Positions 24,218 to 58,807 of a stretch of 64,000 bases of DNA are shown in pieces. How positions within the stretch are numbered: the stretch's first letter is position 1; each line of letters begins with the position of its first letter. Origin of the DNA: Megalonaias nervosa (taxonomy: Eukaryota; Mollusca; Bivalvia; Unionida; Unionidae); contig JAECUM010091510.1 of assembly GCA_016617855.1 (NCBI GenBank), forward strand, positions 30,001 to 94,000, given 5' to 3'. Under the pieces are notes generated by a model, which was not told the DNA's origin, made no database searches, and saw nothing but the letters and a program-made list of their open reading frames with translations. Both the position numbers and the translations under genes were made by a program.

Positions 24218-24695
24218 AGTAGTATAGTGGGGCGATAGGGCCCTCATCATGCCAAAGAAGGAAAATCAGCCTGGGGTGATATCACCCTCAAATCTTTAGC
24301 AAAAAATGGCACACCCTGGGGTGATGTGACCCCCTCCCCCCCCCAAAAAAAAGATTAATTATGGGTCAATAGGAATGGAACAGGTGGAATGGCGTCTTGG
24401 TACTTGACACTTGTAACAATGTTGCGAGTGGCTGACCTGAAAACGCGCAGCTACTCTAGGTAGGGATAAATACAATAGAGAGACAGAGACATAGATAAAC
24501 ACAACCATAGATTGATGCACATCAATCTATCATACCCAAATTATACAACCGACTAAAAAACAATTAGGTAAGATAATAATGTTTTTGGGAGTTAAACATA
24601 AATTATACAACTGACTTACATATTTTTAGGCAAGAAAGAATAAATATCTTTTCGAGGTATATGAAAGTGGCCCTGAAAAGGGCCTTTGGTTTTTT
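24218..24695 (+). repeat. Left terminal inverted repeat of element 2
   Basis: It pairs with the reverse complement of 43182-43512 with some mismatches. The left copy has about 125 bp extra (about 24505-24630), including a small palindrome ATAGATTGAT/ATCAATCTAT. The inner edge contains the histone-like stem-loop of the leftmost gene. Confidence 0.88.
24669..24684 (-). terminator. Histone-type 3' stem-loop, leftmost gene (L1)
   Basis: On the minus strand it reads GGCCCTTTTCAGGGCC: a perfect 6-bp stem and a UUUC loop, preceded by CCAAA and followed by AC. GAAAAGATA begins 15 nt downstream, where histone pre-mRNAs have the U7-binding downstream element. It lies 29 bp after the stop codon of L1. 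This is the best match of the nine in the window. Confidence 0.8.
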
Positions 24696-24713
24696 TTTGT
24701 TAACACCATTCTC

Positions 24714-24947
24714 TTAACATAGAGGACATCTCACTGATCTTCTTCTCTTTCTCAAACTTTGTCTAACCTCTGGACCGTAGATGAGGACTCGTTTCAGACA
24801 GCCCTGTCTCTCCACATAGCATCTTCTTTTGCAAACAGTCGTATCGGTGATCCGGATTATGGTCAAAGATGATTTAACATACATGGGTAAGTCCATACGG
24901 AAAAACAACGACGATACGAAAGTAGACGATTCAACGTTTGTCCACAT
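24714..24947 (-). CDS. L1: small basic Cys-containing accessory protein, 77 aa
   Basis: The frame opens with an ATG at 24947 and ends at 24714, just inside the left terminal repeat. The product is basic (QSLRKRRRSVRCPLC at the end) with several Cys and a middle hydrophobic part. I do not recognise a family. Element 3 has the same gene at 57684-57901, but its ATG reads ATT and the frame is broken. The gene is transcribed outward and its mRNA would end at the histone-type stem-loop. A TATAAATA box lies about 50 bp upstream on the minus strand (around 24992-24999), divergent from gene L2. Confidence 0.5.
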   Translation of the reverse strand: MWTNVESSTFVSSLFFRMDLPMYVKSSLTIIRITDTTVCKRRCYVERQGCLKRVLIYGPEVRQSLRKRRRSVRCPLC

Positions 24948-25105
24948 CTTGTGACGAGAACAGGTGAAGGGAATGAAGTGAACCACGTTTATTTATAGTG
25001 GAAGACCGGACCGAAACGGATTGAGATTGTTCACCAATCCCAACACGCGTTACAAAATTCAGTCACTTCGCGGAGTCTGTCTTCCAATCCGAAGAGAGCT
25101 ACCTG

Positions 25106-25126
25106 TGACGTCACATTCCCTATATA
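25106..25126 (+). promoter_or_regulatory. CRE-like motif and TATA box of gene L2
   Basis: TGACGTCA at 25106-25113 is a perfect CRE/ATF palindrome and TATATA at 25121-25126 a TATA box, about 55 bp before the L2 start. Element 3 keeps the TATATA (58076-58081) with TCACGTCA in place of the CRE. Confidence 0.6.
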
Positions 25127-25178
25127 GGTGCACTAGCGTCTGTGCGCAGTGAATCGATGCGACATTGTTTTTTGAAAC

Positions 25179-25358
25179 ATGACGGAAATTAAGAAGACAA
25201 TGAATTGGGGTGCACCGGCCGTGGAGACAAGAAGCGATGGCACAGCAGCAGCTACCAAAGTTAACATAGGGCCACTTCCAGAAGAGGTCGATTTTAATTG
25301 GGATTTAGTAGATTTTCTCTCTTCTTCGCAAGAATTTATTCCGGTACCAGTGAAATGA
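25179..25358 (+). pseudogene. L2: accessory protein, truncated by a 1.2-kb deletion
   Basis: The frame starts at 25179 and closely matches the first 58 residues of the intact 208-residue protein of element 3 (58134-58760), including the shared LVDFLSS and FNW motifs. It ends after PVPVK because about 1.2 kb present in element 3 (58305-59515) is missing here. The deletion also removed the stem-loop of L2 and the whole zinc-knuckle gene. The remaining protein is probably non-functional. Confidence 0.75.
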
Positions 25359-25475
25359 GAGTGAAATGAATACTGAGAGGGAAGGAACCAGCCCATTATA
25401 GATACACTGGTCTGACATAGATATATAGGGGTTCATGGCGTTGCAAATGTAATCATTTGACTTTTTGCAGTCAAG

Positions 25476-25665
25476 ATGAAACGATCGCAACATTTCGTAA
25501 AGAAAGGAGAAGAAAGTAAGAGGCACAGTAGCTGAAGTCTTGGCTCAAATTCATGCCATCGGTATTGAAGATGACATGAGTGAGCCAGAATCCAGGTCCA
25601 GAGAGTCTACACCAAGTCAAAGTCCATCACCACCAGTAAACCCCAAAAAGTATTTGCACATTTGA
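25476..25665 (+). pseudogene. L4: small basic/acidic protein, broken by a 23-bp deletion
   Basis: It starts at 25476 with MKRSQHFVKKGEESKR and then loses the frame because 23 bp found in element 3 (59638-59844, intact 68 aa) are absent. The remaining sequence up to the polymerase start still aligns with element 3. The function is unknown; the N-terminal half is basic and the C-terminal half acidic. Confidence 0.65.
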
Positions 25666-25668
25666 GAG

Positions 25669-28600
25669 ATGGACAAACGCTCCTCTAGAAAATTTAGAAC
25701 CACAGCCTACACGTACACAGTGAAGTTTAAAGATTTCAAGTCAGACGTACCGCAGGAGAAAGCAGAAGGGTTCATCACCGATGTGTGGGATTCTTTGTTA
25801 ACCACACTGAAACAGCAATGTGAAGCCAAAGAAGACGATCGTTTGAGACTTTCCATTTATCACGACAGTTTGAAGTCCCCCGTTTGGATCGAGTTTAGGA
25901 GCCCGGCAGAACTGACACCTTCCAAAGTCATGGAGAAGATTCAACACCTACAGCAATCCAACGACAAGTTTCACATCACCGATGGAAAAGCGACACTGTC
26001 CATGACCCACGTTTCTCTTCCCCAAGGGACCGGACAACGCAAAAAGGTGTTAGTGGTAGACGACCTTCTCAGCATCAAGCGCAGCATCGTTCAAATTAAC
26101 AACACTCAAGACCAGATGTGTTTAGCCCGTGCCATCGTGGTGGGACGAAAGTACGCCGTCAAGAACGACACCACAGAATTGAAAAGAGCCAGGAAAACTA
26201 TTCGACGATCGGGCCGAACCAAACAAAGAAGAGAAGCAGAACTCCTGTTACAACAAGCGGGGATATCCAAAGTCAGACCCTGCGGCATTCCTGAAATGCA
26301 AAAATTGCAAGACGTCTTGGATGTAATCTACACCTTGAAAGTGTACCCTCAAGAAGTGCGCGGACCTCTGTTATTTCGAGACAAAGATTTCAAAGACGGA
26401 AAATACATTCATGTCTATCATCACGATGAACATTTTGATGTCATTACCAGTATCATCGGATTCCTGTCATACAGTTATTACTGTGAGAAATGTGACTATG
26501 GCTATAACAATCGAGAGCAACACAAACATTGTGGATCGAAATGTGAGGGATGTTGTCCTCTAAGCCCTGTCTGGACGAAGGACAAGAACGAGTGCATTGC
26601 TCAGCTTGTCAGTGCACTTTTGTCAGCCCTGCCTGTTACAAACAACATTTGAAGACGCAAGGTTCACAGCAGAAATGTGCTTGTCAACTCCTGAGATTGT
26701 GCCCTACTTGTGAACAAGGCATACGCACCAATAATAGCAAGGCACACGTCTGTTCAGGAAAGAAGCGATGTCAGATTTGTCACCAAATAGTGGACTCGGA
26801 ACACAAATGCTACATTCAAAAATACCATTCCAAACATGAAGAAGAAGAAGATGACCAGAAGAAAGGGAATTTCATCTTTTTCGATTTCGAATGCATGCAA
26901 GAGACCGGCATTCACATTGCTAATTTCTGCGTGGCTCACCGAGCGTGCGAGAAGTGCATCCAAAACCCTATCTTTACTCATTGCCCTCACTGCAGCAAGA
27001 TTCCTGGAGGACGTGAAAAAATCTTTCGGGGACCGAACACGCTGGCCGATTTCGCCCAATGGCTCTTAGACCCTATCGACGAGACGTGGAATCAAGAGGA
27101 CATTGAACATTACGGAGATTGCCATCGCTATGCCACGGTGATGGCTTACAATTTTACGGGATACGATGGGCAATGACTTCTCAAATACTATACGGAACAA
27201 GGCACAGAACGTCCTAAAGTGACTTTGAACTGAGCCAAAATCATTTCCATGCAAGTGGGACAAGTGCAGTTTAAACATTCGATGAGTTAGTTTTTCATGC
27301 CTTTGAGCCGAATGCCTAAAACGTTTGGAATGACAGAAATGGTCAAAAGCCTTTTTCCGCACTTTTTTAATATCGAAGCCAATCAACATGCCGTTCTATC
27401 CCATTTGCCTGAGGTTCACTGCAACGACCCCGACAACATGCACACCGAACACCGAGAAGCTTTCTACGCTTGGTACCACACTCACGCCTCGGACCCTATC
27501 GACTTTCAAGAAGAAATGTTGAAATATTGTCGTTCCGACGTGGACATTTTACGGGGTTGCTGTGGAAAATTTCGAGAATTATTCATGGAGCATGGAGGGA
27601 TCGACCCTTTGAAAGAAGCCTGCACCATTGCCAAAGCGTGTTCTTTAGTGTAACGCCAACGACTCATGCCCGAAAACACCCTAGCTGTCGTAAGTCCTCA
27701 AACGACCAATTTTGTCCAACGTCAATACTCGGTCAATGCCCTATGCTGGTTACATTACTTGTACGACAAGGAAGACAAATGGATCCAACATGATCGCAAT
27801 GGAGGAGGCGAAGAAGCCCTCAAAAGATATTCAGTGGATGGTTGGGACTTAGAAAACCCCCAGATCATGTACGAGTTTAACGGTTGCTTATTTCACGGAT
27901 GCCCCATCTGTCACCCTCAACGTGACACTAAAAATCAGTTTTTACAACGGACCATGGAAGACTTGTACGAGACCACTTGTCAGCGGCAAATGAAGTTAGA
28001 AGAGCAAGCATATCAAGTGGTGGAAATGTGGGAACACGAGTGGGATCAGCGATTGAAAACCGATCCCGAGCTTAAACGCATCGTGGAAAGTTACAAGCTG
28101 GTTGACCCTCTGAACCCGCGGAACAGCTTGTACGGAGGACTGACGACTGTCACCTGTTTGCTGTACCAAGCCGTACATGTGCAAATATTGTCACTTTTCC
28201 GCAGGGCACCCGCAATTGCTGACGGAACACACCGACGTGGACAACATTCGACAATACGAAGGATTGATCAAGTGCAAAGTCTTGCCTCCCACGGACTTGT
28301 ACCATCCCGTTTTACCACATCATTGCCAAAGAAAACTGATGTTTCCCTTGTGTCGTACTTGTGCCGAAACGTGCAACCAAGACCGACCTTGTCAGCACAG
28401 CCAGGAAGAACGAGCCTTCACGGGAACGTGGGTCAGCGTGGAATTGTTCAAAGATCTGGACCTGGGATACCAACTGTTAGATGTGTACTAAATTTACCAC
28501 TTTCCCAAGACAGAAAAATGCCACTAGGGCGACAAGACTCAGAAAGGCATTTTCGCAGACTACGTGAATGCCTTTTTGAAACTGAAACAAGAAGCCAGCG

Positions 28601-29479
28601 GCTATCCTTCCTGGTGCCACACTCCCGAAGGCCAAAAGAAATTCAAAGAGAAATACTGGGAGCAGGAAGGCATCCTTTTAGACCGCGTAGAGAAAAACGA
28701 AGGAAGGCGATCGTTTGTCAAAGTGATGTTAAATTGTTTGTGGGGCAAAAAGGCACAACGACCGTGGTTACCCAAGACGGAGTATTTGACAGAACCTTCC
28801 CGCTACTTCCAGATGATTCATGACAAAACCAAATACATGAAACACGTGGACGTCCTTCGTGAGGACTTGATCTTAGTCAATTACGAAGAAGAACTGGACT
28901 TTGTAGAAGCCGACGAATTTGGAAATGTCATCATTGTGGCTTACGTGACAGCCCATGCTCGCTTAAAACTGTACGAAGCTTTAGAACTGTTAGGAGATCG
29001 TGTGTTGTAATTTGACACGGACAGTTGCATCTACAGCGATCGTCTGGGTCAACAAGACACTAAAATCGAAGGAGACCGTTTAGGAGCCTGGACGGAGGAG
29101 CATCGCGACGACAAGATTGTAAGTTTTGCAAGTGGCGGTCCCAAAAATTACGGCTACGAAAACCGAGACCCATAAGGAGAAGTGCACACCAATGTAAAGT
29201 GAAATGATTGACTCTCAATTATCGCACCACTCGACTGGTGAACTTTGGCGTCTTGAAAGAAGCCTTGCAGTCTGACAGGATGGAAATTTTAAAGTGACCA
29301 CCCACGAACTGCACAAGATTGTACGTTTACCCATACACCAAATCGTCAGCCGACCCTTGGAAAAAGTCTATCAAATAGTGTACCAGAAGCCAGTACGGCT
29401 TCCCAATCACTTCACTTTACCGTACGGTCACGTCTATGTTGGTCAGCATATAAAAAGGAACAACGTCCAAGACCAATAG
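25669..29479 (+). pseudogene. Protein-primed-type DNA polymerase B of element 2, multiply broken
   Basis: The first frame (25669-26652) is the N-terminal region with a zinc-binding CEKCDYGY...HKHCG block. After a frameshift comes the exonuclease with ExoI FFDFECMQETG, ExoII YNFTGYDGQ (about 27170) and ExoIII YCRSDVDIL (about 27520). Next are the family blocks MYEFNGCLFHGCPICH and DPLNPRNSLYGG. Motif B is FVKVMLNCLWGKK (about 28720). Motif C FDTDSCIY at about 29010 is preceded by a stop. The C-terminal block ends near LPNHFTLPYGHV (about 29430). The motif A region (DxxSLYP) is missing near 28170-28195, so the catalytic core is destroyed. At least six frame breaks are visible. Originally it replicated the element. 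Confidence 0.92.
29449..29455 (+). promoter_or_regulatory. TATA box before the BIR-like gene
   Basis: TATAAAA stands 60 bp upstream of the ATG at 29512. Similar boxes precede other element 2 genes: 30660, 31511, 32326 and 35743. Confidence 0.5.
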
Positions 29480-29511
29480 ATTATTGTCACTACAAACAGC
29501 AAGCGAGAAAG

Positions 29512-29806
29512 ATGAATCCTTTCACACAAGCGTAAGACTCAAGTCCAACGAGAAGCTCGAGTACGATGCTGTGCCTTGCGATGGAAGGGATGCCATACGC
29601 TATGACCTCAGCGATTCAGTACGACATCATAGGAACTTTGCTACGACTGTACCTACCATGGAAAGTGATGCGAAGGAGATAAAGTCAAGTGTTTCAGTTG
29701 CGGTATGTCACTGCACGAGTGGGGGAAGAAAGATTCCGCTTACCTGGAGCATGCTCGATGTTCTCCGGATAGTCACTACCTACCTTTAGTGGGGCCTCGT
29801 CATTGA
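29512..29806 (+). pseudogene. BIR-like (IAP-type) zinc domain protein, broken
   Basis: The last open part (about 29684-29806) reads DKVKCFSCGMSLHEWG, then KKDSAYLEHARCSPDSHYL. This follows the BIR consensus DxVxCFxCGxxLxxW...EHxxxxPxCxF: CxxC, Trp and His ligands are in place, but the final Cys position is Ser. Upstream segments in other frames look like the start of the same domain, with a stop and at least one frameshift between them. BIR proteins inhibit caspases, and viral copies delay apoptosis. The position between polymerase and ATPase shows that it is a cargo gene of the element, not a host exon. Confidence 0.65.
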
Positions 29807-29817
29807 AGTGGCATACC

Positions 29818-30207
29818 ATGTCGTTTAAGAAACCAGCTGCTTGGCTAGGAGTCAAACGTTGGATAACCCCTCGACAAGTATTTAAACCCCATTTAAAAAA
29901 TAATCTTCAAACATTACCAAACGAATTGCAAGAGAAGATCTACAAGGACATTTGGCAGGGACTTGCCAGAACAAAATCTTGATGGGTGACTGTAGAACTT
30001 TTATGGCGAGAAATTCACGAGAGGAAATTGACAACAGTCAACAAACAAGTCAGATTTATCTGGATCAAGTGTGCGTTATTCCGAATATTCCGCTTTATAC
30101 CATTTACATTTGAAGATCTTATTGATATTCTTGACCGTTACCCTGAATGGCAGTGGCCAGAAATTACTCACTGCATTCGTTACTCTCGCTCTATGAGAAA
30201 TGTATGA
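29818..30207 (+). pseudogene. F-box-like protein A with one internal stop
   Basis: One frame runs from the ATG at 29818 to 30207, interrupted only by a TGA at 29980-29982. Near residue 35 it has LPNELQEKIYKDIWQ, reminiscent of the LPxELxxxI opening of F-box-like motifs. The rest is Trp- and Arg-rich and unknown. A second gene directly downstream has a similar motif. An F-box role (ubiquitin ligase adaptor) is a weak inference. Confidence 0.4.
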
Positions 30208-30359
30208 CTGATATAGTCATGGATACTTTACAAGAGAACATTCGTGGTTTGCCTGTGGAGTTGAGAGAAAGCATTTACCGAGAGTTGACTAAAATACAAG
30301 TGGAACGCAAGAACAGTTTCATCCGTTACGTCACCGATCTTAAAAGCACTTGTTCCTAA
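30204..30359 (+). pseudogene. F-box-like protein B (paralog fragment)
   Basis: The ATG at 30204 overlaps the previous stop as ATGA. LPVELRESIYRELTKI parallels the motif of the preceding gene, so this is probably a tandem paralog. The frame stops at 30359 and the following sequence to about 30600 holds only remnants in several frames. Confidence 0.35.
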
Positions 30360-30659
30360 ACGCTATAAGAGGATTGATTCTGCCGAAAGTGTTCCAGTGG
30401 TCAGACATTGATGAATCGCGTAAAATTTATAGATATTTGGATGCCACTCATTAAACTTACAAGGTGATCCTAATACACAGAATTCCAGAAGACGAGTTAG
30501 AGGATTACCAAAATCTTTAACACAATGTAAACTTTGTTCAAGAGGAAACTTCTGTACGACGTGTGGTGTGTGAGTTAGTGACTAAACATTTTTGGTACTG
30601 TACTAAAATAAAACCGATGCTGTTCATAAAGTACACTTTTTACCTTACACCAATGAGGG

Positions 30660-31357
30660 TATAAAAACGGACTACCATGCCTCGACCTTTATCATTCGTG
30701 ATACAACAGATTCCGTGGAAGGAAATCAATGACAATATTTAAACGGTGTTGGATTGCGATCGCCTATTACGAGAACTGTGTCCATTGAATTGGGGTCGAC
30801 ATGTAGTGTGTGTCTTAGTGGTTTGCTTTATGGGATTTCGTTTACCAGCCGATTCCTTGTGGACTCTTTACGAACAGTACCTACCACTCCAAAAAGCATG
30901 AAAGTGGTCCCTTTAAATGTACACGAAAAACTCATTCTGCTCAAAGCTTTGCACTTTCATTTCGATACTTCTCGACAACCTCTACAGGAAAGAAAGATTC
31001 GTTAACTTTTAGGCACTGAAGATGTGTACGATGATGTGTTTGTAGCTTGTGACTTACACCCTCACTGGCAATATGTACGTCACTGGAAATGTTGGGGTTT
31101 CGAGGCTTGGACAAAAGAAATGGCACACTATGGCCAAGATTTGTCATCCTAAAAAGGTAAAACATTCAGTGAAAAAAGTAACTTTTAAACCTGCGTTAGT
31201 GGCAGTAGCAGAAGAAGAACCACTACCTTCAGGACAGGACAGGACCGTCATTGACATCCCCGAAAGACCATTCCGGGAAGACCCTTGTATGACTGTGCCA
31301 AGGAATGTAGAGACTCTAAGAACATTACACACTGTCCCTACGATACCCACCTCTTGA
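30660..31357 (+). pseudogene. Unknown decayed gene behind a TATA box
   Basis: TATAAAA at 30660-30666 precedes an ATG at 30677. Short frames follow, with stops at the end of each: one has WTLYEQYLPL and a final one (31049-31357) is basic then Pro/Thr-rich (HPKKVKHSVKKVTFKP). I do not recognise a family and cannot tell one gene from two. Confidence 0.35.
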
Positions 31358-31570
31358 TCACCAAAAATGTTGTACAGAGACTTGTTTATATTCCACTTTG
31401 ATCGTTTTGATGTGTCTTTTATTCATGTACTTAGCCATTTGGCTTTTATGTGTTTTTGTCATTCGTGTTGATCACTTTCAAAGATGGCAATAAACGAGTC
31501 CTGAAAAAAGTATAAAAAGTCTTGTCTTGTCTGTCTTCCTGTCAAACGTGACATTCTTTACACTACTACT

Positions 31571-32301
31571 ATGGCTACTTCTACTGTCTCTGCTCCCTCT
31601 TCCTCCACAGTCAAAGTCATCGACTAAAACGTAGATCGTGCTAGTTGGGAGGCCTTGTATCTTCGCCATCCCTTTAACATGTTAACTGCTGGACCCAGAG
31701 ATCCAGACAAAACCGAATTTGTCAAACGTTTGATCGAACATAAACGTCATTTGATCGATCGTCCACCTCAACGTATCGTTTGGTGTTACAAAGAGTGGCA
31801 ATCGGCGTACAGTCTCCTGCGAGAAAGTCAAGGCGATTCCATCGTGTTTGTGGAAGGCATTCCTGGCGAAGACGACGGGATCGTGTCTAACCCTAGTCAA
31901 ACCCATCTGGTCATCTTTGACGACATGTTAAGAGAAGAAGAAGAAGAAATTATACTCTGGTTTACGCGCTAAGGCCATCATCGTAATGCCAGTGTCATTT
32001 ACATCACTCAAAATTTGTTTTTCAACAAAGTAAAGCCCATCGCACCATCAGTCTCAATGCTCATTACGTGGTGCTGTTTAAAAGCCCTAGATATAAATCG
32101 CAAGTGCAAGTGTTAGCCAAACAGTTAGGAACGATTTGGCTGACTCATGCGTACGACGATGCCACTCAAACCCCACAAGCCTATTTACTCGTGGATTTAA
32201 AACCCACCACTCCCGATTATTTGCGATTTCGTACCCATCTGTTTCACCACTGGTGCCAAGACGGAGGGCCTGTCGTGTACACGTCCCCTTCGTCGACTTA
32301 A
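31571..32301 (+). pseudogene. Packaging ATPase of element 2, broken
   Basis: TATAAAAA at 31511 precedes the ATG at 31571. The P-loop region reads MLTAGPRDPDKTEF, so two residues of the usual GSGKT are changed. Walker B is THLVIFDDML and the sensor region is ASVIYITQNLFF. A stop at about 31625 and another at about 31970 interrupt the frame. A shifted frame (32068-32301) holds the family's C-terminal block (VLFKSPRYKSQVQVLAKQL, AYLLVDLKPTTPDY). The intact enzyme would package DNA into capsids. The altered P-loop would abolish nucleotide binding even without the stops. Confidence 0.9.
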
Positions 32302-32370
32302 CAACAACAACAACCAAAAAAAGTCTATAAAAACCTTGGTCACTTTAGGTCTGTCTCACACATCGTCAAC

Positions 32371-33102
32371 ATGACGTCCCTTCAGTCTCATCTTCCCGTC
32401 AAATTGATTCGTACCTTGAACGGCATCAGTCGCGAAAAAATCCACAAATACGTGCTCGTGTCTTAGAAGTTAGTCTCAAATAAGTCTTACGATGGTTTAC
32501 GGTGACAGCACGTCAATTACTGCAAAGCATAATTCACATTCCACATCAAATCAAACCTTTTTTGAGAGAAACAAAGTAGCCTTGAGGCAGCAAGTCGATC
32601 CTCGCATCGACACTCAAACCAAAAAGCACATCATTTTGAAACCTGGAAGTAGCGGTTCTCTAGGAGGTGTCATCATTCGTTCCCTCTTAAAATGGGATCC
32701 CAATGCTCCCAAAGTCCTACCCAAGAAAACAGCCACTCCTCGACGTACCCAGAAGAAAACCTCAGGTTCTTCGACTTCTCCGTTGCTGGTGATCCCTGCC
32801 AAACCCGATTTGACACGCATCTTTCTTAATTTGATTTGAAACATTGGAAACCTGCGTCTCCAAGAACTTCTCCTCCAGTGGTGACACCTTCCTTCTCTTT
32901 AGCGGCAACAGCCGCTGCTCACAAAGTACCTGCCCCCAAAATCAAAGTCCAAGAAAGATCGGGTGTCTTAAAGAGTTTACTGGATTTGTCCAAGAAAGAA
33001 CTGTCCCGACTGAATCCGTTGCGAACTCCTCTACGAAGTGTGATGCCTGCCATGAAACTGATACGACGAGCCGACAATCAGTGGCAACGCATCCCAGTAT
33101 AA
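32371..33102 (+). pseudogene. pX-like virion protein paralog A, broken
   Basis: TATAAAA at 32326 precedes an ATG at 32371. Scattered over three frames are KLIRTLNGISREKIHKYV, KKHIILKPGSSGSLGGVI and a C-terminal Pro/Lys-rich part with LLDLSKKELSRL. The pattern of a Leu/Arg helix followed by Lys-rich sequence and a glycine-containing hydrophobic segment resembles paralog B at 33476. It is probably a core or membrane-active virion protein precursor. The homology is judged by eye and is tentative. Confidence 0.45.
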
Positions 33103-33475
33103 GAAAGACCCGTGGCAAACGATAGGGATCAGTGTTTTTGTGCTCCTGAACAACCAAAGATGTCCCCTCAAAGACGTGCACACTGTCACCATCGTCGTTC
33201 TTCTGTCCAAAAAGGAAAAAGAAAAAGAAAAGGACAGTTACGTCATCCAAAAAAAACTCTTAGGTAAAAACACCCACGACTGTCCGTGAAAAGACACTCT
33301 GGTTCAAATAAAAGAAGTCACCAAAGAGGAGGATTCTTTGGCGATTTTGGAAAACAAATTGTCACCTTTATGACGAAGCGATAGTCAAGAAAAGGATAAA
33401 AGGCCGTGTGACAAGTCATCGACGTTAGTGTATTTTTTGGTGTGTGCCGCGGAACCAACGAACCAACCAAGAAAG

Positions 33476-33909
33476 ATGTCACCTCCCAAAAAACATCCTT
33501 CTTCTACCCCCAAAGGAAAGAAAAGGAAAGGACTGCCTTCTGGTTTAGTCAAACATTGGGACATGTTATCCGTCCTGTCCAAAGCTTCTCCACCCATGCG
33601 AACAAAAACTCATTCAAACTTCCTCCAAAGATGTCATCGATACCGTGAGCGAATGTTGTCTGAATGTCTTGAAAGGCACGATAACTTTCTCTAAACAAAG
33701 GTATCGTGCCTTTCAAAGAATGCTTAGCCAAACATCGACACGTTCTTCGCCAAATGGTCCAAAAGAAAATACCCATTCGTCAAAAGAAAAAGATGTTGGT
33801 GCAACGCGGAGGAATTGCCATTTTACCCCTGTTAGCACCCTTGCTGGGAAACATAGGAGGACCCTTGCTGAAAGAAGTACTGGGAACAATGGGAAGAATC
33901 CTGGGATGA
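33476..33909 (+). pseudogene. pX-like virion protein paralog B, broken
   Basis: An ATG at 33476 opens a Lys/Pro-rich leader. Further segments in shifted frames carry KHWDMLSVLSKASPPMR, SECCLNVLKG-like sequence, and CLAKHRHVLRQMVQKKIP. The last stretch KKKMLVQRGGIAILPLLAPL is the hallmark of a widespread Polinton virion protein: basic LVQRGG followed by a hydrophobic segment as in adenovirus pX. The frame ends at 33909. A 15-bp inverted repeat (33669-33683/33702-33716) lies in the middle. Confidence 0.65.
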
Positions 33910-33979
33910 AGATAAAAGGTCAAGAGGATAAAAGGGACCTCAGAAATCAAAAGATCTCAGACGTGACCCTTGAAATCCA

Positions 33980-34669
33980 ATGGAAGGACGAAAACTGGCT
34001 TTAGTGCCTGATAAACGATGGATGGAATACCATCGTTGGCAAGAACAACGAACCCCGCATTTACCTCCCAATCCTCATTTGACCGAGATGTCCCAGTTAC
34101 AACACGAATTGCAATTTTTGATGGATCGCAGCGATATGTCAGAAACGGACAAATCGCAATGGTACGGTCAATTGTTGCAACGACTGCAATACTTTCACCA
34201 GAAAGCTTTAGACAAAACAGCTCTACCCACTCTGAAAGATTTTAAGATCCTGATGAAAAGTTCATCACCACCCCCAGCGGTCAAGACAGATGCAGCCCCA
34301 AGGATGTCTGAGGAAGAAGAGGCAAGAGAAGTCTTTCAAACACCGTCAGCAGTACCCATCCCTAGTAAGATTGCAGCGTCCTTGTTGACCCTTTCCCCTA
34401 CACCCCAACGAGAAGAACGTAAAGCTTGGGTTAAAAAGATGATGTCCACTCCACCTTCGACAGAAGTCAAAAAGAAAGAAGGGGAAGCAGAAGTACAAAA
34501 AGAAAAGAAGACCAAAGCCATTCCAATACCGCCACCATCAACACCACCATTACCTTCGACTTCTACTCCCGTGGCACATCGGACACGTAAAGCCGTTTCT
34601 AAACCACACTCTTTCAGAGTACCATTAGCGAAGAGTGGATCACTTATTAAAAAATGGAGAAGGTGTTAG
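33980..34669 (+). CDS. Conserved Polinton protein of unknown function, 229 aa, intact
   Basis: This is one of the few uninterrupted frames of element 2. The N-terminus contains KLALVPDKRWMEYHRW and, near residues 38-75, HELQFLMDRSDMSETDKSQW followed by YGQLLQRLQYF. This matches a conserved helical protein that Polintons usually carry between the pX-like gene and the integrase. The C-terminal half is low-complexity Pro/Lys/Glu and ends in a basic tail. It overlaps the integrase start by 16 bp. The function is unknown; a virion or scaffold role is possible. Confidence 0.6.
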   Translation: MEGRKLALVPDKRWMEYHRWQEQRTPHLPPNPHLTEMSQLQHELQFLMDRSDMSETDKSQWYGQLLQRLQYFHQKALDKTALPTLKDFKILMKSSSPPPAVKTDAAPRMSEEEEAREVFQTPSAVPIPSKIAASLLTLSPTPQREERKAWVKKMMSTPPSTEVKKKEGEAEVQKEKKTKAIPIPPPSTPPLPSTSTPVAHRTRKAVSKPHSFRVPLAKSGSLIKKWRRC

Positions 34670-35733
34670 CCAGCATTTACTATGATCCATCCCATCCTGC
34701 AGGTTACGGAGGAGTTCAGAAATTGTATCGTGCCGCCAAAACTCGACTGAAAAGTGTTCGTTCACCTCAAATGCAACGCTGGTTACAAGAACAAGCCACG
34801 TAAACCTTATGCAAACCCATTCGACGAAAATTTTCCAGAAGTCGTACCCAAGTGGAGAGTATAGATCATCAATGGCAAGCCGATTTAGCCGATGTCTCTC
34901 ATTTGGCCACCTACAATCGTGGCTACAAATATTTGTTTTGTGTCATCGACGTCTTTTCTAAATTTCCTTGGGTCATACCATTGATTTCCAAATCGAGCAG
35001 TGAGTTAGTGCGAGCCCTCAAACTGGTGTTGAAACAAAGCGGGCGTCACCCTCTTCGATGGCAAACCGACAAAGGCACCGAATTTCTGAACCAAGCTTTC
35101 CAAAAAGAATTGAAGAAACGTGACATTCATTTTTTCACCACCGAGAATCCCGAAACCAAAACCAGCATCTTGGAACGTTTTCAACGCACCTTGAAAGAAC
35201 GCATGTGGAAATATTTTACGCATCAACACACTCTCAAGTACATCGACGTCTTGCCACAACCAATATTTATTACCATCGGAGCATTGGACATGCCCCCCCC
35301 CCTCCAAGAAGTGACTCTCGACAACGAAGTGACCGTCTTCGAGCGCCTGTTTGTTAGGTCCCCGACAGTGACTGTCTCCAAGAAAGGTGGAGTGTTGGCA
35401 GTAGGAGATTGGGTGCGCAATGGCAAAACCAAACGTACTTTCAACAAAGGTTACTTATCCAACTGGACCACCGAATTGTTTCGTGTCACTGTACGTGTGC
35501 GTGGTCGTTATCCTCCCGTGTATATATTGGAAGACATGAACGGGAAAATATTAAAAGGAACTTTTTGCTTGCCCGAGTTACAACGCGGGACCAAAAAAGA
35601 AGACGACGTGTACGAGATTGAAAGCATTTTCGATGGAAGAACCCGAAAGGTGGGAAAACGACGTGTCAAAGAAGTCAAAGTAAGTTGGAAAGGATATCCT
35701 CCCAGTTTTGACTCTTGGATCGACTCTTCGTAA
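34654..35733 (+). pseudogene. Chromodomain integrase of element 2 with one stop codon
   Basis: One frame of 360 codons from the ATG at 34654 is interrupted only by a TAA at 34801. The N-terminus YYDPSHPAGYGGVQKLYRAA is the typical Polinton integrase opening. The catalytic core has Asp in HQWQADLADVSH, Asp in WQTDKGTEFLN and Glu in ILERFQRTLKERMW, the latter two 35 residues apart. The C-terminus is a chromodomain: YEIESIFDGR, then VKVSWKGYPPSFDSW, with the aromatic residues for methyl-lysine binding. A chromodomain could steer insertion to heterochromatin. A single premature stop suggests fairly recent inactivation. Confidence 0.93.
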
Positions 35734-35742
35734 ATCATCGAC

Positions 35743-35749
35743 TATAAAA
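35743..35749 (+). promoter_or_regulatory. TATA box after the integrase gene
   Basis: TATAAAA lies 14 bp before the ATG at 35763. Element 3 keeps CTATAAAAAG at the same place (about 61541). Confidence 0.45.
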
Positions 35750-35762
35750 GGAAGTGACCTTC

Positions 35763-36166
35763 ATGCCCCTGAACACAGCCTCAGTCATCGCAGGAACCAC
35801 TCCTTCCCCCAGTTCTTCTCTGCAAGATCTACAAAAGCAACCCTTGTGGGTATGGTGTGGAGAACGTGTGCCTAAAACACAAATCGTCATTTTCTGTCAA
35901 ATCTTTGTGGTGTATCGTGTCATTGGTGCTGCCATTGAAAATTTGAATTTGCAAGAAGAAGACAAATAATTATGGACCATTTTACTCAGCAGTTGCATGG
36001 TTACCTTCTTCCCAATCCATCTCTGAAATATTTCTCTAACGGGAACAACAACCGGAGTCTTGCGTCCAACGTCAGTCCCCCTTCCAACAGTCACCCTAAC
36101 CATCCTCTTTTAGACACTCCTCTGACTTTCAGCGACCATTCGGACACTAGAACTCTGGAATTATGA
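35763..36166 (+). pseudogene. Small hydrophobic protein, frameshifted
   Basis: The first frame (35763-35969) has one hydrophobic stretch, TQIVIFCQIFVVYRVIGAAI, and ends early. A second frame (35972-36166) continues with a Ser/Asn/Pro-rich tail. In element 3 both parts form a single intact 134-residue frame (61560-61964). The family is unknown; the hydrophobic segment suggests a membrane protein. Its stop overlaps the penton start as ATGA. Confidence 0.6.
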
Positions 36167-37032
36167 ACAACCAACTTTACTTAACGTTACCCAGTGACAG
36201 TTCCATGGATGTGTTTCCCAATAACACCTTATGATGTTACATGGCCAAATTACCTCAGGCCGTCCAATTTAATCATGAAGCCCATTGGGAAGTGGCTTTA
36301 GTGGAAATGATTTACCCTATACAAATCAAAAACATCGTCGAAAATCAAAACACCTTTACGGTAGAAATTCATGAGGAGCAAGTGCAACAACACTTGGATG
36401 AACGCTCCAGTGTAGGTGACTCTATGAAGTCACAAGACCCCAAAACTAAACGGACCACTTATCGGTTGAAAATTCCCTCAGGCTATTATTTTAGTGGTCA
36501 ACATTTAGTGAACGCCATTGCTGACAGGTTCAATACCGTGTTTGGCAACGTCTTGGAAAAACCAGAAAAAGCGTCAAAGTTTCAGAGGACAAAGTATTGG
36601 CCATTACATTTTGTCCTGAATTGTATGACATTCTGGGTGGATACCCCAAGTTGATCAAGATTAGAAACGAAATACCAACCGTGAACAGTAACTCGGATTT
36701 TGCGAAATATTTTCGATTCCCTGTAGAAATCAACCAAAGACTGAATTTCATCTTTGTGTTCTCCGATGTGGCGGAGTACAACGAGGTAGGACACACCTCC
36801 GTACCGTTACTGCGTGTCATTCCTTTCAAAGAGGATTCTGCCACGAACGCTGACGAGGAAGGTGGAAACAATATTCACGTTCACCGCCAATTTATACATC
36901 CTCACTATTTACCTGTCAGTAAGTCGTATTTCGACAATGTCAACATTACTATAAAAGGAGATCTGGACAAAATATTCCATTCACCGAAGGGAAAGTCACA
37001 GTGAAACTCCATTTTCGAAAACGATTACTCTA
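36163..37032 (+). pseudogene. Penton-type minor capsid protein of element 2, broken
   Basis: The start reads MNNQLYLTLPSDSSMDVFPN, the characteristic opening of the Polinton penton protein (LYxTLPSxxSxDxFPxN). A TGA at 36232 interrupts the frame, which then continues to 36654 (AHWEVALVEMIYPIQIKN, YYFSGQHLVNAIADRF). A frameshift near 36560 leads to a last part with YNEVGHTSVPLLRVIPF and a final strand ending near 37032. Function: pentameric capsid vertex. Element 3 carries a similarly damaged copy at 61963-62830. Confidence 0.88.
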
Positions 37033-37046
37033 ACCCTTTGTCAGTC

Positions 37047-37299
37047 ATGTATCCTGTGTACCAAGGAGTAGCTTGACAGCAAGGACGTGGTTTAGGAGAT
37101 ATGCTAAAATCAGCCTTTCGTTGGGTGGCTCCCGTTGTGAAACCGATGGTGACACGGGGATTGCACGCCTTGAAAGATGCCGCGTTGACGCAAGGTAAAG
37201 AATTTCTCCAAAATGTCATCATCGACAGACAAAATCCTAAAGAAGCTTTCTTGAGAGCAGGCAAAAATGTCTTACTTCAAACTGGCAAAGTGTTATAAA
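37047..37299 (+). pseudogene. pVI-like protein of element 2
   Basis: From the ATG at 37047 the frame has a TGA at 37074 after MYPVYQGVA, then continues with GRGLGDMLKSAFRWVAPVVK and an Ala/Lys-rich helix to a stop at 37299. YQG...GRGLGD followed by an amphipathic helix is the Polinton pVI-like signature. Element 3 has a stop (TAA) at the same codon. In element 3 the protein runs on to a basic GRKRRRKHPF tail, whereas here a frame break comes earlier. Confidence 0.75.

Positions 37300-47589: not shown

Positions 47590-47648
<59 letters not shown>
46376..47648. repeat. 1.27-kb purine tract (GAGACA-type satellite)
   Basis: It begins and ends with pure (AG)n runs and is made of degenerate GAGA/GAGACA units between them. 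It abuts CAGCAACATCAGCACC-type Gln codons at 47647, where element 2 has a short AGAGGG-CAGCAA transition in gene R1. The long Ser/Leu and Arg/Glu frames across it are artefacts of the repeat. Confidence 0.95.
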
Positions 47649-47830
47649 AGCAACATCAGCACCAACAACAACAACAGCAGGAGCAAGACAGAGGCTTTGT
47701 GGACTGTCATGTAGACACTAAGGAGTTCTTCTTCTTCTCCGGAGAAGCAGGTCGTTTTCCGTGGGAAAGCCTGCTGCCGGACGGGGACGTAATCCCAGAC
47801 GTTAAGAGAGATTGCCCAAACTCTTAACCA
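47648..47830 (+). pseudogene. R1-like C-terminal fragment of element B
   Basis: After Gln-rich codons the frame reads DRGFVDCHVDTKEFFFFSGE, then PDGDVIPDVKRDCPNS and a stop at about 47827. It aligns with the end of R1 in element 2 (RGFVDGRVDSKEF). The upstream part is replaced by the purine tract. The stop lies just before the stem-loop, as expected for this cassette type. Confidence 0.55.
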
Positions 47831-47837
47831 ACAAAAG

Positions 47838-47853
47838 CTCCCTTTTCAGGGCT
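47838..47853 (+). terminator. Histone-type 3' stem-loop, R1-like (degenerate)
   Basis: CTCCCTTTTCAGGGCT followed by ACCCCA. An extra T in the 5' arm weakens the two outer pairs. The loop is UUUC. GGAAGGAC follows 14 nt downstream. Confidence 0.5.
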
Positions 47854-48129
47854 ACCCCAAAGATCTAGGAAGGACAAACTACTCTATTGCCAAAATTTGT
47901 CTGTATTTGTGTGTTGGACTGTGAGTGTGATTTTTATGTCAAAAGATAGAACTGTGCCTATAAACACTTCGTGTCCCTGGCTTGTAAGATAGTGTGTGTA
48001 TGTGTGTTTGTTTTAGGGTTATATGCATGGATGGTAATAAAGTGTGTTTGTAGGAAAAATATGAACGTGATTGTTTTAGGTCCGCGCGTTGCATGTTTTG
48101 ATTGTGCTGTGGGTATTGTTAGTTTTTGT

Positions 48130-48230
48130 GTAAGGGAGTGTTTTCCTTCGCGTCCGTGCTTCAGGGATATAAAGCGTAGCGTTCGTCAGTCTGGCTACCC
48201 ATCGTTGAATAGTCAACATCCAAAATCAAT
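48130..48230 (+). promoter_or_regulatory. Shared cassette promoter, R2-like
   Basis: GTTTTCCTTCGCGTCC, GTGCTTCAGGGA, TATAAAG, then GTCAGTCTGGCTACCC and GTTGAATAGTCAAC. It is nearly identical in layout to the R2 and R3 promoters of element 2. Confidence 0.68.
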
Positions 48231-48245
48231 AGAGCACAGAAGATA

Positions 48246-48700
48246 ATGGAACTCCAAATTAACCTGGAAAATACTCGTTGCCTCCTAAACTAACTAGCCA
48301 TGGAGGCTATTGCTGAAGAAGAAGAAGTTGCGTTAGAGTAGGAGAAGGAGAAGGAGAAAGAAAAGAGCATAATCTATCTGATGCGACCCATCTGCCATGT
48401 GAAACCTGTGGTGAAGACACCATTACAGAAACCACCGCAAGCGTTCGCGGTGCCTCGTACCGAAGATTGGGCCTTGGAGCTGGAGCTACAACGCCAAGAG
48501 TGGGAACCTCAGCGACCACAGCAGCAGTATCAGCATGTACGGGCAAGGGATGCAGTCTTCACAATCCCTCAAGCCGAAGACTGGGAGGGTGAAGCGAATC
48601 AACCCTCTTCAGCACTCCCTATCTTTACCATTTCGTGGGAGAACGAATGGAGTCGTGGATGTGTGTGTGGTGCCAGGCCTGGGAGGTGTCATCATTAAGA
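48246..48700 (+). pseudogene. R2-like accessory gene of element B
   Basis: The frame from 48246 (MELQINLENTRCLLN) has a TAA soon after and a TAG near 48340, then is open with MRPICHVKPVVKTP, RTEDWALELELQRQEWEPQR and PQAEDWEGEA before a terminal Cys-rich piece. It aligns with R2 of element 2 in the CHVKP and Trp motifs. The segments are conserved although stops separate them. The function is unknown. Confidence 0.6.
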
Positions 48701-48723
48701 AGGTGTATTTGAAATTTAAAAAC

Positions 48724-48739
48724 AGCCATTCTCAGGGCT
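48724..48739 (+). terminator. Histone-type 3' stem-loop, R2-like
   Basis: AGCCATTCTCAGGGCT: one A-G mismatch, loop UCUC as in R2 of element 2. GAAAAGAGAG follows 13 nt downstream. Confidence 0.62.
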
Positions 48740-48936
48740 ATCCAGATCTTCAGAAAAGAGAGACTGATCAATTTGCCAATAATATTAGTGTTTGTTGGTA
48801 GTGTGTGTATGTGTGACTGTCTGTGTGTGTGTGTCTTTCCCTGAACAAAACCCATGGTTCCAACACTTATGAGTGTTTGTATTGTGTGAAAGTAAAGTAG
48901 TTTCACTTTAAATACTAACTCCTTTGCTGATGTGAG

Positions 48937-48993
<57 letters not shown>
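48937..48993. repeat. (TG)n microsatellite of element B
   Basis: It is in the same place between R2- and R3-like cassettes as in element 2. Confidence 0.93.
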
Positions 48994-48999
<6 letters not shown>

Positions 49000-49340
49000 T
49001 AACCAAACCCTTGTCCCTACACTCATGAGTGATTGTTTTGTGTGAAAGTAATGTGACTCTAAACACTGACTCATTTGGTGGTGAGTTTGTAGGTAATGGT
49101 GTATTTTTGTAAATAAAAAGTTTCCTTCTCCACTATTTGTTAGCATGAAGTATTGTTGATTTTGTTGGTATTAGTGTATTGACTTGTATAAAAATTTATT
49201 TTAGGTCAGCACTCTCATCTCTGGGGATTGTATGGTATGTGATGTGCGTAGTTAGTGTGAGGGGATGTTTTCCTTCTGGTCCGTGTTTGACGTATATATT
49301 ACGTAGCGTTTCGTGCACTTCATCTTTGAATTTTCAAACG

Positions 49341-49745
49341 ATGGCAACGAACTACGTCGACAAAACGCAGATGTTAAAAGAGGTTGTGGATACCTTACGG
49401 ATAGTTGAAGAAATGATTGTAAGGTTGGAGTATGGTTCATATAGCCCCCACAGATTGAAAATGGAAATTAGTAATTTAAGGAGAGGGAAGGAAATATTAA
49501 GGGAGCTTATAAAACAGTAAAAAGAAGAAAAGGAGGATTTGGAGGAAAAAGAACAGATTAGAAGATACAACGAAAAAATAATGAAAGAGGAGGAAAATGA
49601 AAATGGACAAAAGAGGAGGAGGAGGAGGAGAAGGAGGAAGAGGAGGAGGAAAAGGATGAGAAGAAGAAAAAGACAAATGTAGTGAAGAAGATAAGGAACT
49701 GGTGGAAGAGAAGAAGAGAAGAGAGACAGCAGAAGAAGATGAAGA
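49341..49745 (+). pseudogene. R3-like right-terminal gene of element B
   Basis: The ATG at 49341 opens MATNYVDKTQMLKEVVDTLR, open to a TAA at 49518. Purine-rich codons follow; in a shifted frame they give EKDEKKKKTNVVKKIRNWWK, the conserved tail of R3. A preceding GGATGTTTTCCTTC and a TATATA (about 49292) mark a diverged promoter. The gene is outward-directed and ends in the terminal repeat. Confidence 0.5.
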
Positions 49746-49753
49746 AACCCAAC

Positions 49754-49769
49754 GGCCATTTTCAGGGCC
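49754..49769 (+). terminator. Histone-type 3' stem-loop, R3-like
   Basis: GGCCATTTTCAGGGCC: one A-G mismatch, UUUC loop, preceded by CCAAC. GAAAAGATG starts 13 nt downstream. Confidence 0.7.
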
Positions 49770-50071
49770 CCTCAACTGTCTCGAAAAGATGCCCATTCTC
49801 TCTTGCCTAAATTAATTTGTAGTCGAATGTATAGTTGCTTGTGTGATAGATTTATGTAGATAAATCTATGTAAGTCTGTCTCTATGTCTCTAACCCTGTC
49901 TCTAGCCACGTCTCTATGTCTATGTCTCTATTTGTTCTTAGAGTAGGGCGTATTCAGGTCAACACCTTGCAACACTATTCCGCCGATTGAGGTCAGCCTC
50001 TTGCAACATTGTTGCCATTGTTTCCCCAGTGTCCAGTACCGTGACGTCACCCCTCTCCAATACCTATTGAC

Positions 50072-56335: not shown

Positions 56336-56408
<73 letters not shown>
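56336..56408. repeat. (TA)n microsatellite
   Basis: About 36 TA dinucleotides. Confidence 0.97.
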
Positions 56409-56409
<1 letters not shown>

Positions 56410-57644
56410 CATTTGCATATTCAAAGAAACGACTATATTATCAGAATAGTTCTATTCCTCACCTGGCAACTGTATAAAAATCTATTTAATAAACCACACC
56501 AGAAAACCTAAATACGGTAAATCTGCTATGGAACAATTTAACATTTAAACTTGGAGGTCTACATCGTTTTCCTCCTAAGGCATATACATTGAAGCTATAT
56601 GGCATGTCTGAGACATTATGAACTGCTTACAACATTACCAGCTGGAACATATATTTTATTAAGGTGCACCGTAATTTGTTCATGAGAAAGATTTATGATG
56701 ATAAGTAAGAACGATTGAAGGATTTTAATATGCTAATGATAAATGAGGGTGGCATAAGAGGCTGAATTAGCATGATGCGAAATAGATACATCAAAGCACA
56801 TCAAGAATATGACTTGACAATGTCTTCTGGTGAATACAAAAGATTATGGTCATCCATTATAGAAATAGATACTAATAATCTCTACGAAAGGACACAGGCA
56901 ATGCATGCCGGTAACACAGGTCTGTATTGATAAGTGATGATCACATTAAATGAGTGGCAGGGTTAGTGTAAAGCACGATCTGAGGACAACTGTTACAAAT
57001 ATCAGATGATAATGATACTGTTAGAAGTGGATTTGAACACTCTATTACATCTGAATGACAAATTGACGTACAAACGGTGGGGGCGGACGGGGCGGCTGTC
57101 CCTGGTGTCATAGTCTTGGGGCGCCAAAACCCCAATGGGCCATCATTATCCCCTGGGCGCCATTTACCATTACTACGCCAGTAGTATATGGGGATACCCA
57201 ACAGACAATGGGAATTAGCATTACGGAACCCTGTTTTGTACCCTACGGACAAGATTTCTACGGACAAAAAATGACCCTGGGACACACTACGGGCAATGGG
57301 AATTTTGTATAGCGACTAGCACACCATGGGTCAGTATGACGTCATGGTACTGGACACTTGCAACAATGTAGCAAGTACCGTGACGTCATGCCACCTGTTT
57401 CATTTCTATACAAAGTGTTATGCATTCGCGTCCGTGTCAGTGGATAGTATAGTATGTTTTATGCCTTCACGTTCGTTTCCATAGACTGATGAACATCACT
57501 CTATCCTACCCAAATTATACAACCGACTAAAAAATTTTTAGGTTAAGAGAATACTGTTTTTGTGAGTTAAACATAAGTTATACAATCGAATAAAATTTTT
57601 TTTAGGCAAAGTGATAATAAATATCTTTTCGAGGTATAGGAAGT

Positions 57645-57660
57645 GGCCCTGAAAAGGACC
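57645..57660 (-). terminator. Histone-type 3' stem-loop, L1 of element 3
   Basis: On the minus strand GGTCCTTTTCAGGGCC: full pairing with one T-G pair, UUUC loop. GAAAAGATA starts 14 nt downstream. Confidence 0.75.
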
Positions 57661-57683
57661 GTTGTTTTTATGTTAACACCATT

Positions 57684-57901
57684 TCTTTAACATAGGTCTT
57701 CTTCTCTTTCTCAAACTTCGTCTAACCTCTGGTCCATAAATCAGAACTCGCTTCAGACAGCCTTGTCTTTCCACATAGATCCTTCGTTTCCAAAGGGCTG
57801 TATCAGTGATCTGGGTAATTGCCAATGATGATCTGACATGGATAGTCCGGGTGGAACAGCATCGACGATAAGAGGGTAGACGATTCTACGTTGGTCCAAA
57901 T
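57684..57901 (-). pseudogene. L1 homolog of element 3, start lost
   Basis: It aligns with L1 of element 2 over its length, but the start codon reads ATT (minus strand, 57899-57901) and small indels break the frame after the first 20 codons. The stem-loop downstream is kept. Confidence 0.65.
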
Positions 57902-58133
57902 CTTGTGACGAGGAACAGGTGAAGGGAATGAAGTGAACCGTGTTTATTTATAGTGGAAGACCGGATCGAAACGGATTGAAATTGTTCACAAATCCCATCA
58001 CGCGTTACAAAATTCAGTCACTTCGCGGAGTCTGTCTTCCAATCCGAAGAGAGCTACATGTCACGTCAAATTCCCTATATAGGTGCACTAGCGTCTGCGT
58101 GCAGTGAATCGATACGACATTGTTTTGTGAAAC

Positions 58134-58760
58134 ATGACTGAAACTAAGAAGACGATGAATTGTGGTGCACTGGCTTTGGAGATGAAAAGCGATGGCATAA
58201 CAATGGCTACCAAAGTTAACACAGCGCTACTTCCAGAAGAGACCGATTTCAACTGGAATTTAGTAGATTTTCTCTCTTCGCAAGAATTTGTTCCAGTACC
58301 AGTACCTTCGCCACCTTCTCATTCTTTACCATACGTCGAGGATTTTAAACAGAGACAGAAAGAAGAATTGGAGAAATTTTTGCAGCAGCAGAAAGAGGCA
58401 GAACAAGCATTCCTCCTTGAACAGCAACAGCGAGAAGAAGAGGCAAGAAGGAAACGACAGGAAGAAGCAGTAGAGGAGAAACAAGGTCTAGGAGAGAAGG
58501 AGAACAGTGAACCTCAAACGGTAACGGTACTCTTGGACATTTTGGCAGAGTTAAGAAGTCTGAAACAAATGTACCAGATTTCTATATTAAGACCGAAGAG
58601 AAAAAGACCTTCCCGAGTCAAACAGTCTAACCCGGTTACTACACCGGAGATACCACCCCTAGTGATTTCTACTAAATCATTGACAGGAGCAAGTTCAGGA
58701 GTAGGTCTTGGCCGTGGCAAAGGCTTAAGGCAGTTAAAGCTAATTGCTTCTCGTTCCTGA
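58134..58760 (+). CDS. L2: intact 208-aa accessory protein with coiled coil
   Basis: This is an open frame from the ATG at 58134. The N-terminal 60 residues contain DFNWNLVDFLSSQEF. A Pro-rich linker follows, then a long Gln/Glu/Arg coiled coil (about residues 62-125), a Leu-rich helix (TVTVLLDILAELRSLKQM) and a basic Gly/Lys tail (RPKRKRPSR, GLGRGKGLRQLKL). I do not recognise a family; the layout suggests a nuclear, oligomeric, nucleic-acid-binding protein. It has a TATATA box 55 bp upstream and a histone-type stem-loop 32 bp after the stop. It is the best surviving example of a complete stem-loop cassette. Confidence 0.7.
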   Translation: MTETKKTMNCGALALEMKSDGITMATKVNTALLPEETDFNWNLVDFLSSQEFVPVPVPSPPSHSLPYVEDFKQRQKEELEKFLQQQKEAEQAFLLEQQQREEEARRKRQEEAVEEKQGLGEKENSEPQTVTVLLDILAELRSLKQMYQISILRPKRKRPSRVKQSNPVTTPEIPPLVISTKSLTGASSGVGLGRGKGLRQLKLIASRS

Positions 58761-58791
58761 GTTTGTTCTAAGAAGAAAACAAACACCCAAC

Positions 58792-58807
58792 GGTCCTTTT
58801 CAGGACA
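58792..58807 (+). terminator. Histone-type 3' stem-loop, L2
   Basis: GGTCCTTTTCAGGACA: five pairs plus an outer G-A mismatch, UUUC loop, preceded by CCCAAC. GAAAAGAGAT starts 14 nt downstream. Confidence 0.7.

Follow-up and report, generated by a model that had tools for sequence, protein, structure and literature searches.

In animals, the 3' ends of replication-dependent histone messenger RNAs (mRNAs) are made when the protein SLBP binds a stem-loop, the U7 small nuclear ribonucleoprotein (snRNP) pairs with a downstream element, and CPSF73 cleaves between the two; in the mouse H2a gene, the purine core of this histone downstream element (HDE), AAAGAG, pairs with CUCUUU of U7 (passages of PMC7026596). 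The abstract of PMC6303110 calls histone mRNAs the sole known animal protein-coding mRNAs with a stem-loop in place of a polyadenosine (poly(A)) tail. One section of PMC12220804, on 8300 genomes of virophages and Polinton-like viruses, counts six histone 3' untranslated region stem-loops at Rfam cut-offs, with no hit in its cryptophyte set. Here we describe such stem-loops in Polintons (Mavericks) of the bivalve Megalonaias nervosa, within 64,000 nucleotides of contig JAECUM010091510.1 (assembly GCA_016617855.1, positions 30,001 to 94,000 of the forward strand; hereafter the window, whose own numbering is used throughout). Five classes of accessory genes at the two Polinton ends finish in a signal shared with a host histone gene, which suggests that these elements tie their accessory genes to the host histone mRNA pathway.

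The window contains nine stem-loops of 16 nucleotides (nt), each at the position and on the strand given in a first-pass annotation of this DNA. As that annotation had claimed, they stand at the sense-strand 3' ends of small genes in three element copies, here called B, C and D. The genes, which we define by their loops, are L1 and L2 (left, divergent) and R3, R2 and R1 (right); L1 and R1 face outwards, and their 3' ends are immediately interior to the terminal repeats. Given that there are five gene classes, the nine loops are not independent of each other. The loops and their genes are as follows.

24669-24684, minus strand: gene L1 stem-loop of element B, GGCCCTTTTCAGGGCC, with GAAAAG at 24648-24653
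57645-57660, minus strand: gene L1 stem-loop of element C, with GAAAAG at 57625-57630
58134-58760, plus strand: gene L2 of element C, an intron-free open frame of 208 amino acids
58792-58807, plus strand: gene L2 stem-loop, 31 nt past the stop codon, with GAAAAG(AG) at 58821-58826
40300-40584, plus strand: gene R3 of element B, an open frame piece that passes through the loop in this element
40554-40569, plus strand: gene R3 stem-loop of element B, with GAAAGG at 40584-40589
47838-47853, plus strand: gene R3 stem-loop of element D, two mismatches, with GGAAGG at 47868-47873
40947-41405, plus strand: gene R2 of element B, 152 amino acids, with one metagenome relative at 48% identity
41485-41500, plus strand: gene R2 stem-loop of element B, UCUC loop, with GAAAAG(AG) at 41514-41519
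48724-48739, plus strand: gene R2 stem-loop of element D, one mismatch, with GAAAAG(AG) at 48753-48758
43195-43210, plus strand: gene R1 stem-loop of element B, one mismatch, immediately interior to the right terminal repeat, with GAAAAG at 43226-43231
49754-49769, plus strand: gene R1 stem-loop of element D, one mismatch, with GAAAAG at 49783-49788

Most of the reported anatomy of these loops was borne out. The loop letters are UUUC in seven and UCUC in two, the 5' flanks are A-rich, ACCCCA directly follows the stem at 40554 and 47838, and eight of the nine have GAAAAG or GAAAGG 13-15 nt 3' of the stem; the ninth (47838) has GGAAGG at 14 nt. An intact stem of six base pairs (bp) had been ascribed to all nine, which is not the case: pairing is complete in four, four have one mismatch and one has two. 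A covariance scan of the window with the Rfam histone 3' stem-loop model (RF00032, E<=5), proposed in the first-pass annotation as a check, recovered six of the nine, one of them above the curated cut-off of 34 bits: 24669(-) at 40.0 bits, 57645(-) at 29.6, 40554 at 28.2, 58792 at 25.1, 43195 at 21.8 and 49754 at 19.8. The loops at 41485, 47838 and 48724 had no RF00032 match at this threshold. As a whole, the original observation is partly confirmed.

The combination of hairpin and purine element is rare in shuffled DNA. Using 60 dinucleotide shuffles and a scan pattern written after the nine loops had been seen, we counted four perfect stems with a purine element versus 0.017 expected, eight versus 0.37 when up to one mismatch was allowed, and nine versus 1.6 (largest shuffle, 6) with up to two. 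For hairpins regardless of the purine element, the counts were 10 perfect stems versus 5.0 expected (largest shuffle, 10) and 51 versus 52.6 at up to one mismatch. The signal therefore lies in the combination. A covariance model made solely from the nine Polinton loops of the window (model R1) scores those same loops at 61-75 bits, as expected by construction, and finds no tenth loop above 15 bits in the window. The first stem pair is G-C in four and A-U in three of the nine loops; among 105 distinct rows, mostly chosen by loop score, it is G-C in 94 and A-U in seven.

To place the Polinton signal beside that of its host, we examined the 11 matches to PF00125 in the source genome. The only intact-looking locus among the three with a loop is a host H2A gene (L084), which matches the probe at 94% and is open through its stop. 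Its 3' end reads CCAAC-GGCCCTTTTCAGGGCC-ACC, with GAAAAGAT starting 12 nt past the stem and then TTGCC. The stem, GGCCCT-UUUC-AGGGCC, is the same as the Polinton stem and has GAAAAG 12 nt on; RF00032 scores this end at 37.8 bits. The stem recurs unchanged in an H2B copy (L081), with TAAAAGAA at a distance of 13 nt and TTGCA (RF00032, 30.7 bits), and the loop region of a second H2B copy, L086, is a near copy of the H2A signal. Model R1 finds all three host ends over its full length, at 52.5 bits for L084, 43.4 for L081 and 38.8 for L086 (E 1.2e-11, 3.5e-9 and 6e-8); its next match in the 35 kilobases (kb) of histone loci has E 0.54, and a scan of 50 kb surrounding four histone loci likewise yielded these three alone at E<=0.5. 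In addition, the AAAGAG found at gene L2 ends equals the mouse H2a HDE core. The sharing of stem, purine element and TTGCC is, from sequence comparison, our best evidence that the signal in the elements is that of the host itself.

The same arrangement recurs across the 2.19-gigabase source assembly. RF00032 gave 75 scored matches among 423121 first-look candidates, 66 of the 75 above the cut-off, and 68 of these loci were fetched. A lack of covariance hits above threshold, which the first-pass annotation had named as refuting evidence, is thus seen neither in the window nor in the genome. The list is incomplete and the host H2A loop lies outside it, so its lack of histone genes is uninformative; likewise, stem statistics of the 68 loci are biased, because the loci were chosen by loop score. 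At first comparison 63 of the 68 match element parts, and four of the other five share element sequence on closer look (in L034 mostly the loop and the sequence after it). UUUC loops are present in 66 of the 68, and a purine element lies 13-15 nt away in 61. Loops other than the one by which a locus was selected stand behind 24 of 24 L2 tails, 8 of 8 L1 tails, 6 of 6 R2 tails and the single R3 tail. In 33 of 34 gene L2 copies the loop starts 17-50 nt past an in-frame stop, and in one the frame passes the loop; AAAGAG is present in 30 of the 34. The idea that the loops are pieces of histone genes was rejected: five histone probes had no match in the 68 loci at E<=1e-4. One locus, L031 (G000:C1306:78082-78127), has a histone-type loop with UUUA at 42 bits and no Polinton or histone match beside it.

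Gene L2 copies were also sampled regardless of the loop. A protein search with gene L2 yielded 150 scored matches in the source genome, window copy included, of 14234 candidates, and 181 bases around the frame end were taken from 60 of them. The first set (n=40) was hand-picked down the ranked list and leans to open frames (39 of 40 without internal stops), and the second (n=20) consists entirely of copies with internal stops. Absence of the loop from other copies of the family had been named beforehand as evidence that would speak against the proposal; all 60 copies match model R1, and 52 have the full six-pair stem. In the first set, all 40 match at E<=8.2e-14, with six pairs in 35, UUUC in 37, a purine element exactly 13 nt away in 35, AAAGAG in 37 and TTGCC in 38. 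In the second, model R1 matches all 20 at E<=3.5e-5 and all but one at E<=5.3e-13; the stem has six pairs in 17, 15 have a purine element (at 13 nt in 14 of these), 14 have AAAGAG and 16 have TTGCC. A simple script missed the loop in two copies of the second set, L144 and L151, to which model R1 gives 24.9 and 53.9 bits.

Taken together, these findings make it very probable that Polintons use host histone 3' processing for accessory mRNAs, and they support the interpretation offered in the first-pass annotation. In the mechanism we propose, at least five small accessory transcription units at the two Polinton ends each finish in a replication-dependent histone 3' signal of host type, laid out as a stem-loop soon past the stop, a spacer of 13-15 nt and the purine element GAAAAG(AG). 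Polymerase II would transcribe the unit, host SLBP would bind the loop, host U7 snRNP would pair with the purine element (the U7 5' end being expected to pair with GAAAAGAG), and CPSF73 would cut between the two. The product would be a capped mRNA lacking poly(A), made, kept and translated alongside histone mRNAs, with timing set to S phase or to histone-rich germ cells and embryos, presumably to the benefit of the element. Two genes of these elements have a conventional poly(A) signal instead.

39501-39884, plus strand: protease gene piece of element B, named by eye, with AATAAA at 39923, 39 nt past the stop, and no stem-loop
59031-59549, minus strand: zinc-knuckle (CCHC) gene of element C, with AATAAA at 58877(-), about 150 nt past the stop, and no stem-loop on its own strand

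With AATAAA at the protease and zinc-knuckle genes, two expression classes would coexist in the element. On balance we lean towards the broader proposal that two gene classes pass through two host pathways, the core genes by poly(A) and the end-located accessory genes by SLBP and U7. The accessory proteins would then be confined to S phase, or to germ cells and early embryos, the times at which chromatin is assembled and the element is able to replicate, and these would be the first non-histone gene set known in the pathway.

The signals might instead be used only sometimes, the mRNAs being mainly polyadenylated elsewhere, as is possible for some histone genes. Poly(A) forms from some histone genes are described in parts of PMC3661734 and PMC9756948, and an ATTAAA lies at 58853, about 45 nt past the L2 loop. 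However, AATAAA is missing from the roughly 100 nt after the loop in all 40 and all 20 sampled L2 copies, which is weak evidence given so short a stretch, and the protease and zinc-knuckle genes do have AATAAA past their stops. We regard occasional use as unlikely.

Also improbable, and in our view a little more so, is that the signals are relics of capture: an ancestral Polinton gene would have gained a histone 3' end, which duplication spread to five genes and which is now carried unused. A history of duplication is favored by a 5' block of about 70-90 nt, 68-86% alike, that genes R1, R2 and R3 also have in common.

40790-40910, plus strand: 5' block with TATA-like sequence, gene R2 of element B
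42145-42265 and 49220-49340: the same block, gene R1
40030-40150: the same block, gene R3
48097-48217: the same block, gene R2 of element D

Genes L1 and R1 likewise have common sequence around their loops, beside the terminal repeats, which, like the common 5' block, also counts against the independence of the loops. A comparison of elements B and C shows no better conservation of the L1 loop window than of its surroundings (27% of windows are as good or better), another point for the relic and against host processing. Between B and D, however, the loop window is among the best-kept 40-nt windows, in the top 1.1% for R2 and the top 4.3% for R3. In 37 aligned L2 ends, conservation is 0.94 in the loop and 0.92 in the purine element versus 0.88 in the spacer, 0.85-0.89 upstream, and 0.77 and 0.73 further 3'; this is a modest difference, and the same loop had served to select 12 of the 36 fetched ends. 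Lastly, a signal carried unused is at odds with a loop kept in L2 copies both with and without internal stops.

That the hairpin has another role in the element, such as plain transcription termination or signalling, as DNA or RNA, in replication or packaging, is very unlikely: two of the five loop classes adjoin terminal repeats, but the loops are in sense orientation on the 3' side of open frames, three classes sit deeper inside the element, and agreement with the host H2A end extends past the hairpin to the purine element, its spacing and TTGCC.

Several further observations weigh against host histone processing of the accessory mRNAs. Covariation in the window set is slight: base changes are few, the number of pairs changed on both sides was reached by 70 of 500 shuffles, and the number of cells with such a change by 3 of 500. 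The host comparison has as its basis one intact gene (H2A) and two damaged H2B copies: the L081 frame passes through its loop, and L086 is broken. Eight of the 11 PF00125 loci, among them the H2B pieces L083 and L091 and the H3-like pieces L082, L085 and L087-L089, lack a loop in roughly 1.5 kb of flanking sequence on each side; the PF00125 matches also include H4-like pieces. A search of the genome for the host U7 gene gave no match, and its controls also matched nowhere, which makes this negative uninformative. The only gene R1 tail available as a loop not used for selection (L018) lacks the loop. The 60 L2 copies are among the closest of the 150 ranked matches, with 85-91% protein identity to the query; because they are so closely related, they establish that the family carries the signal but do not by themselves demonstrate selection, and shared recent ancestry accounts for part of the loop conservation. 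Finally, three distant Polinton loci (L001-L003, capsid 41-47% identical) have no loop, although L001 stops about 800 nt past its protease-like frame, so that its lack of a loop is weak evidence.

The elements themselves have the general structure of Polintons.

24218-43512: element B, a Polinton with both ends, partly decayed
24218-24494 and 43248-43512: terminal inverted repeats of element B, the first 20 bases identical at both ends
24212-24217 and 43513-43518: 6-bp target duplication TTTGTT of element B, outside the terminal repeats
57479-64000, plus strand: element C, the left part of a second copy, which continues beyond the window; 84-87% to B over the four longest matches
47636-50071, plus strand: element D, a fragment from the right end of a third copy (R3-R2-R1 region); 64% to B over the longest match

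In element B, an integrase at 34804-35733 matches the Pfam families rve (8.1e-13) and chromo (3.2e-5). A capsid-like gene at 37466-38344 has no Pfam match at E<=0.1 and 451 relatives at E<=1e-3; the 120 listed relatives include animal proteins named 'F54H12.2-like', a name that we take to denote the Polinton capsid. Two pieces of a broken frame, examined as candidates for a protein-primed B-family DNA polymerase, have no Pfam match. About 30 nt upstream of the element B gene R1 loop, at 43092-43164 (-), is a tRNA-Pro(CGG)-like sequence, perhaps the head of a short interspersed element. Beyond elements B, C and D, a distinct Polinton-like element occupies positions 1-13700. Its genes include a double-jelly-roll capsid (PF21738, 8.8e-18) and a large protein bearing a helicase (AAA_19), and RF00032 has no match in this region at E<=5. 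A reversed fragment of a more distant Polinton at 21803-24063 is 58-63% alike to element B, and no histone-type loop was found in it. Direct repeats at 15292-16232 and 17814-18754, 97.5% alike, surround retroelement-like frames and are probably a long terminal repeat pair.

No Pfam family matches the gene L2 protein at E<=1, and 19 metagenome proteins are related to it. In one of them alone, P0015, the frame runs past the usual end into the peptide ...QWPISGPPTSLEKR..., whose codons, as deduced from the protein, are compatible with a TnTC loop on a 6-bp stem and with GARAAR 13 nt past that stem. By eye, the C-terminal half of the L2 protein has a basic tail with GLGRGKGLRQLK, loosely like the histone H4 N-terminus, and the product may be a chromatin-binding protein. 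Searches of IMG/VR with a capsid piece, an L2 alignment, a capsid alignment and a strict loop pattern were all without match; a loose loop pattern picked out nine contigs, which we took as chance given model R1 scores of at most 16.9 bits. The distant loci L001, L002 and L003 are Polintons of animal type in assemblies registered as bacterial (symbionts of Escarpia and Bathymodiolus, and Breoghania), probably through host contamination. In L002, a Twister-P1-like ribozyme match follows the capsid gene at 11731-11795, at 28.9 bits, below the cut-off of 67.2.

A mobile element in which at least five genes end in this signal would demonstrate that the histone pathway can be taken over, and its use of the signal would suggest how such elements time their genes. 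The Polinton loops would also provide a natural set of loop variants, hundreds or more. If the proposal is true, RNA sequencing after poly(A) selection would miss such transcripts, and Polintons may seem silent though active. The first-pass annotation knew of no such report. This needs qualification, as the PMC12220804 section had already counted the bare Rfam hit in the wider group; for the gene context, host match and functional reading, and for histone-type 3' ends of Polintons in general, we found no description in the searched literature, which excludes preprints and most subscription papers.

Compared with known systems, the loops and their genes resemble replication-dependent histone mRNA 3' ends in the UUUC loop, 6-bp stem, A-rich 5' flank and AC after the stem, in the purine element 13-15 nt on, and in short genes with the loop near the stop; the stem is identical to that of the host H2A gene. 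In contrast to those mRNAs, the signal sits behind non-histone genes of a mobile, virus-like element. That element is like animal Polintons in having inverted repeats at its termini, a target duplication of 6 bp, an rve integrase that includes a chromo domain, and a capsid-like gene with relatives in animals, and differs from the three distant relatives in its loops. The Rfam hits among Polinton-like viruses are the same type of signal in a wider group, and the section of PMC12220804 that reports them gives a count only, with no genes, hosts or function. The signal is a known one, and the user is new.

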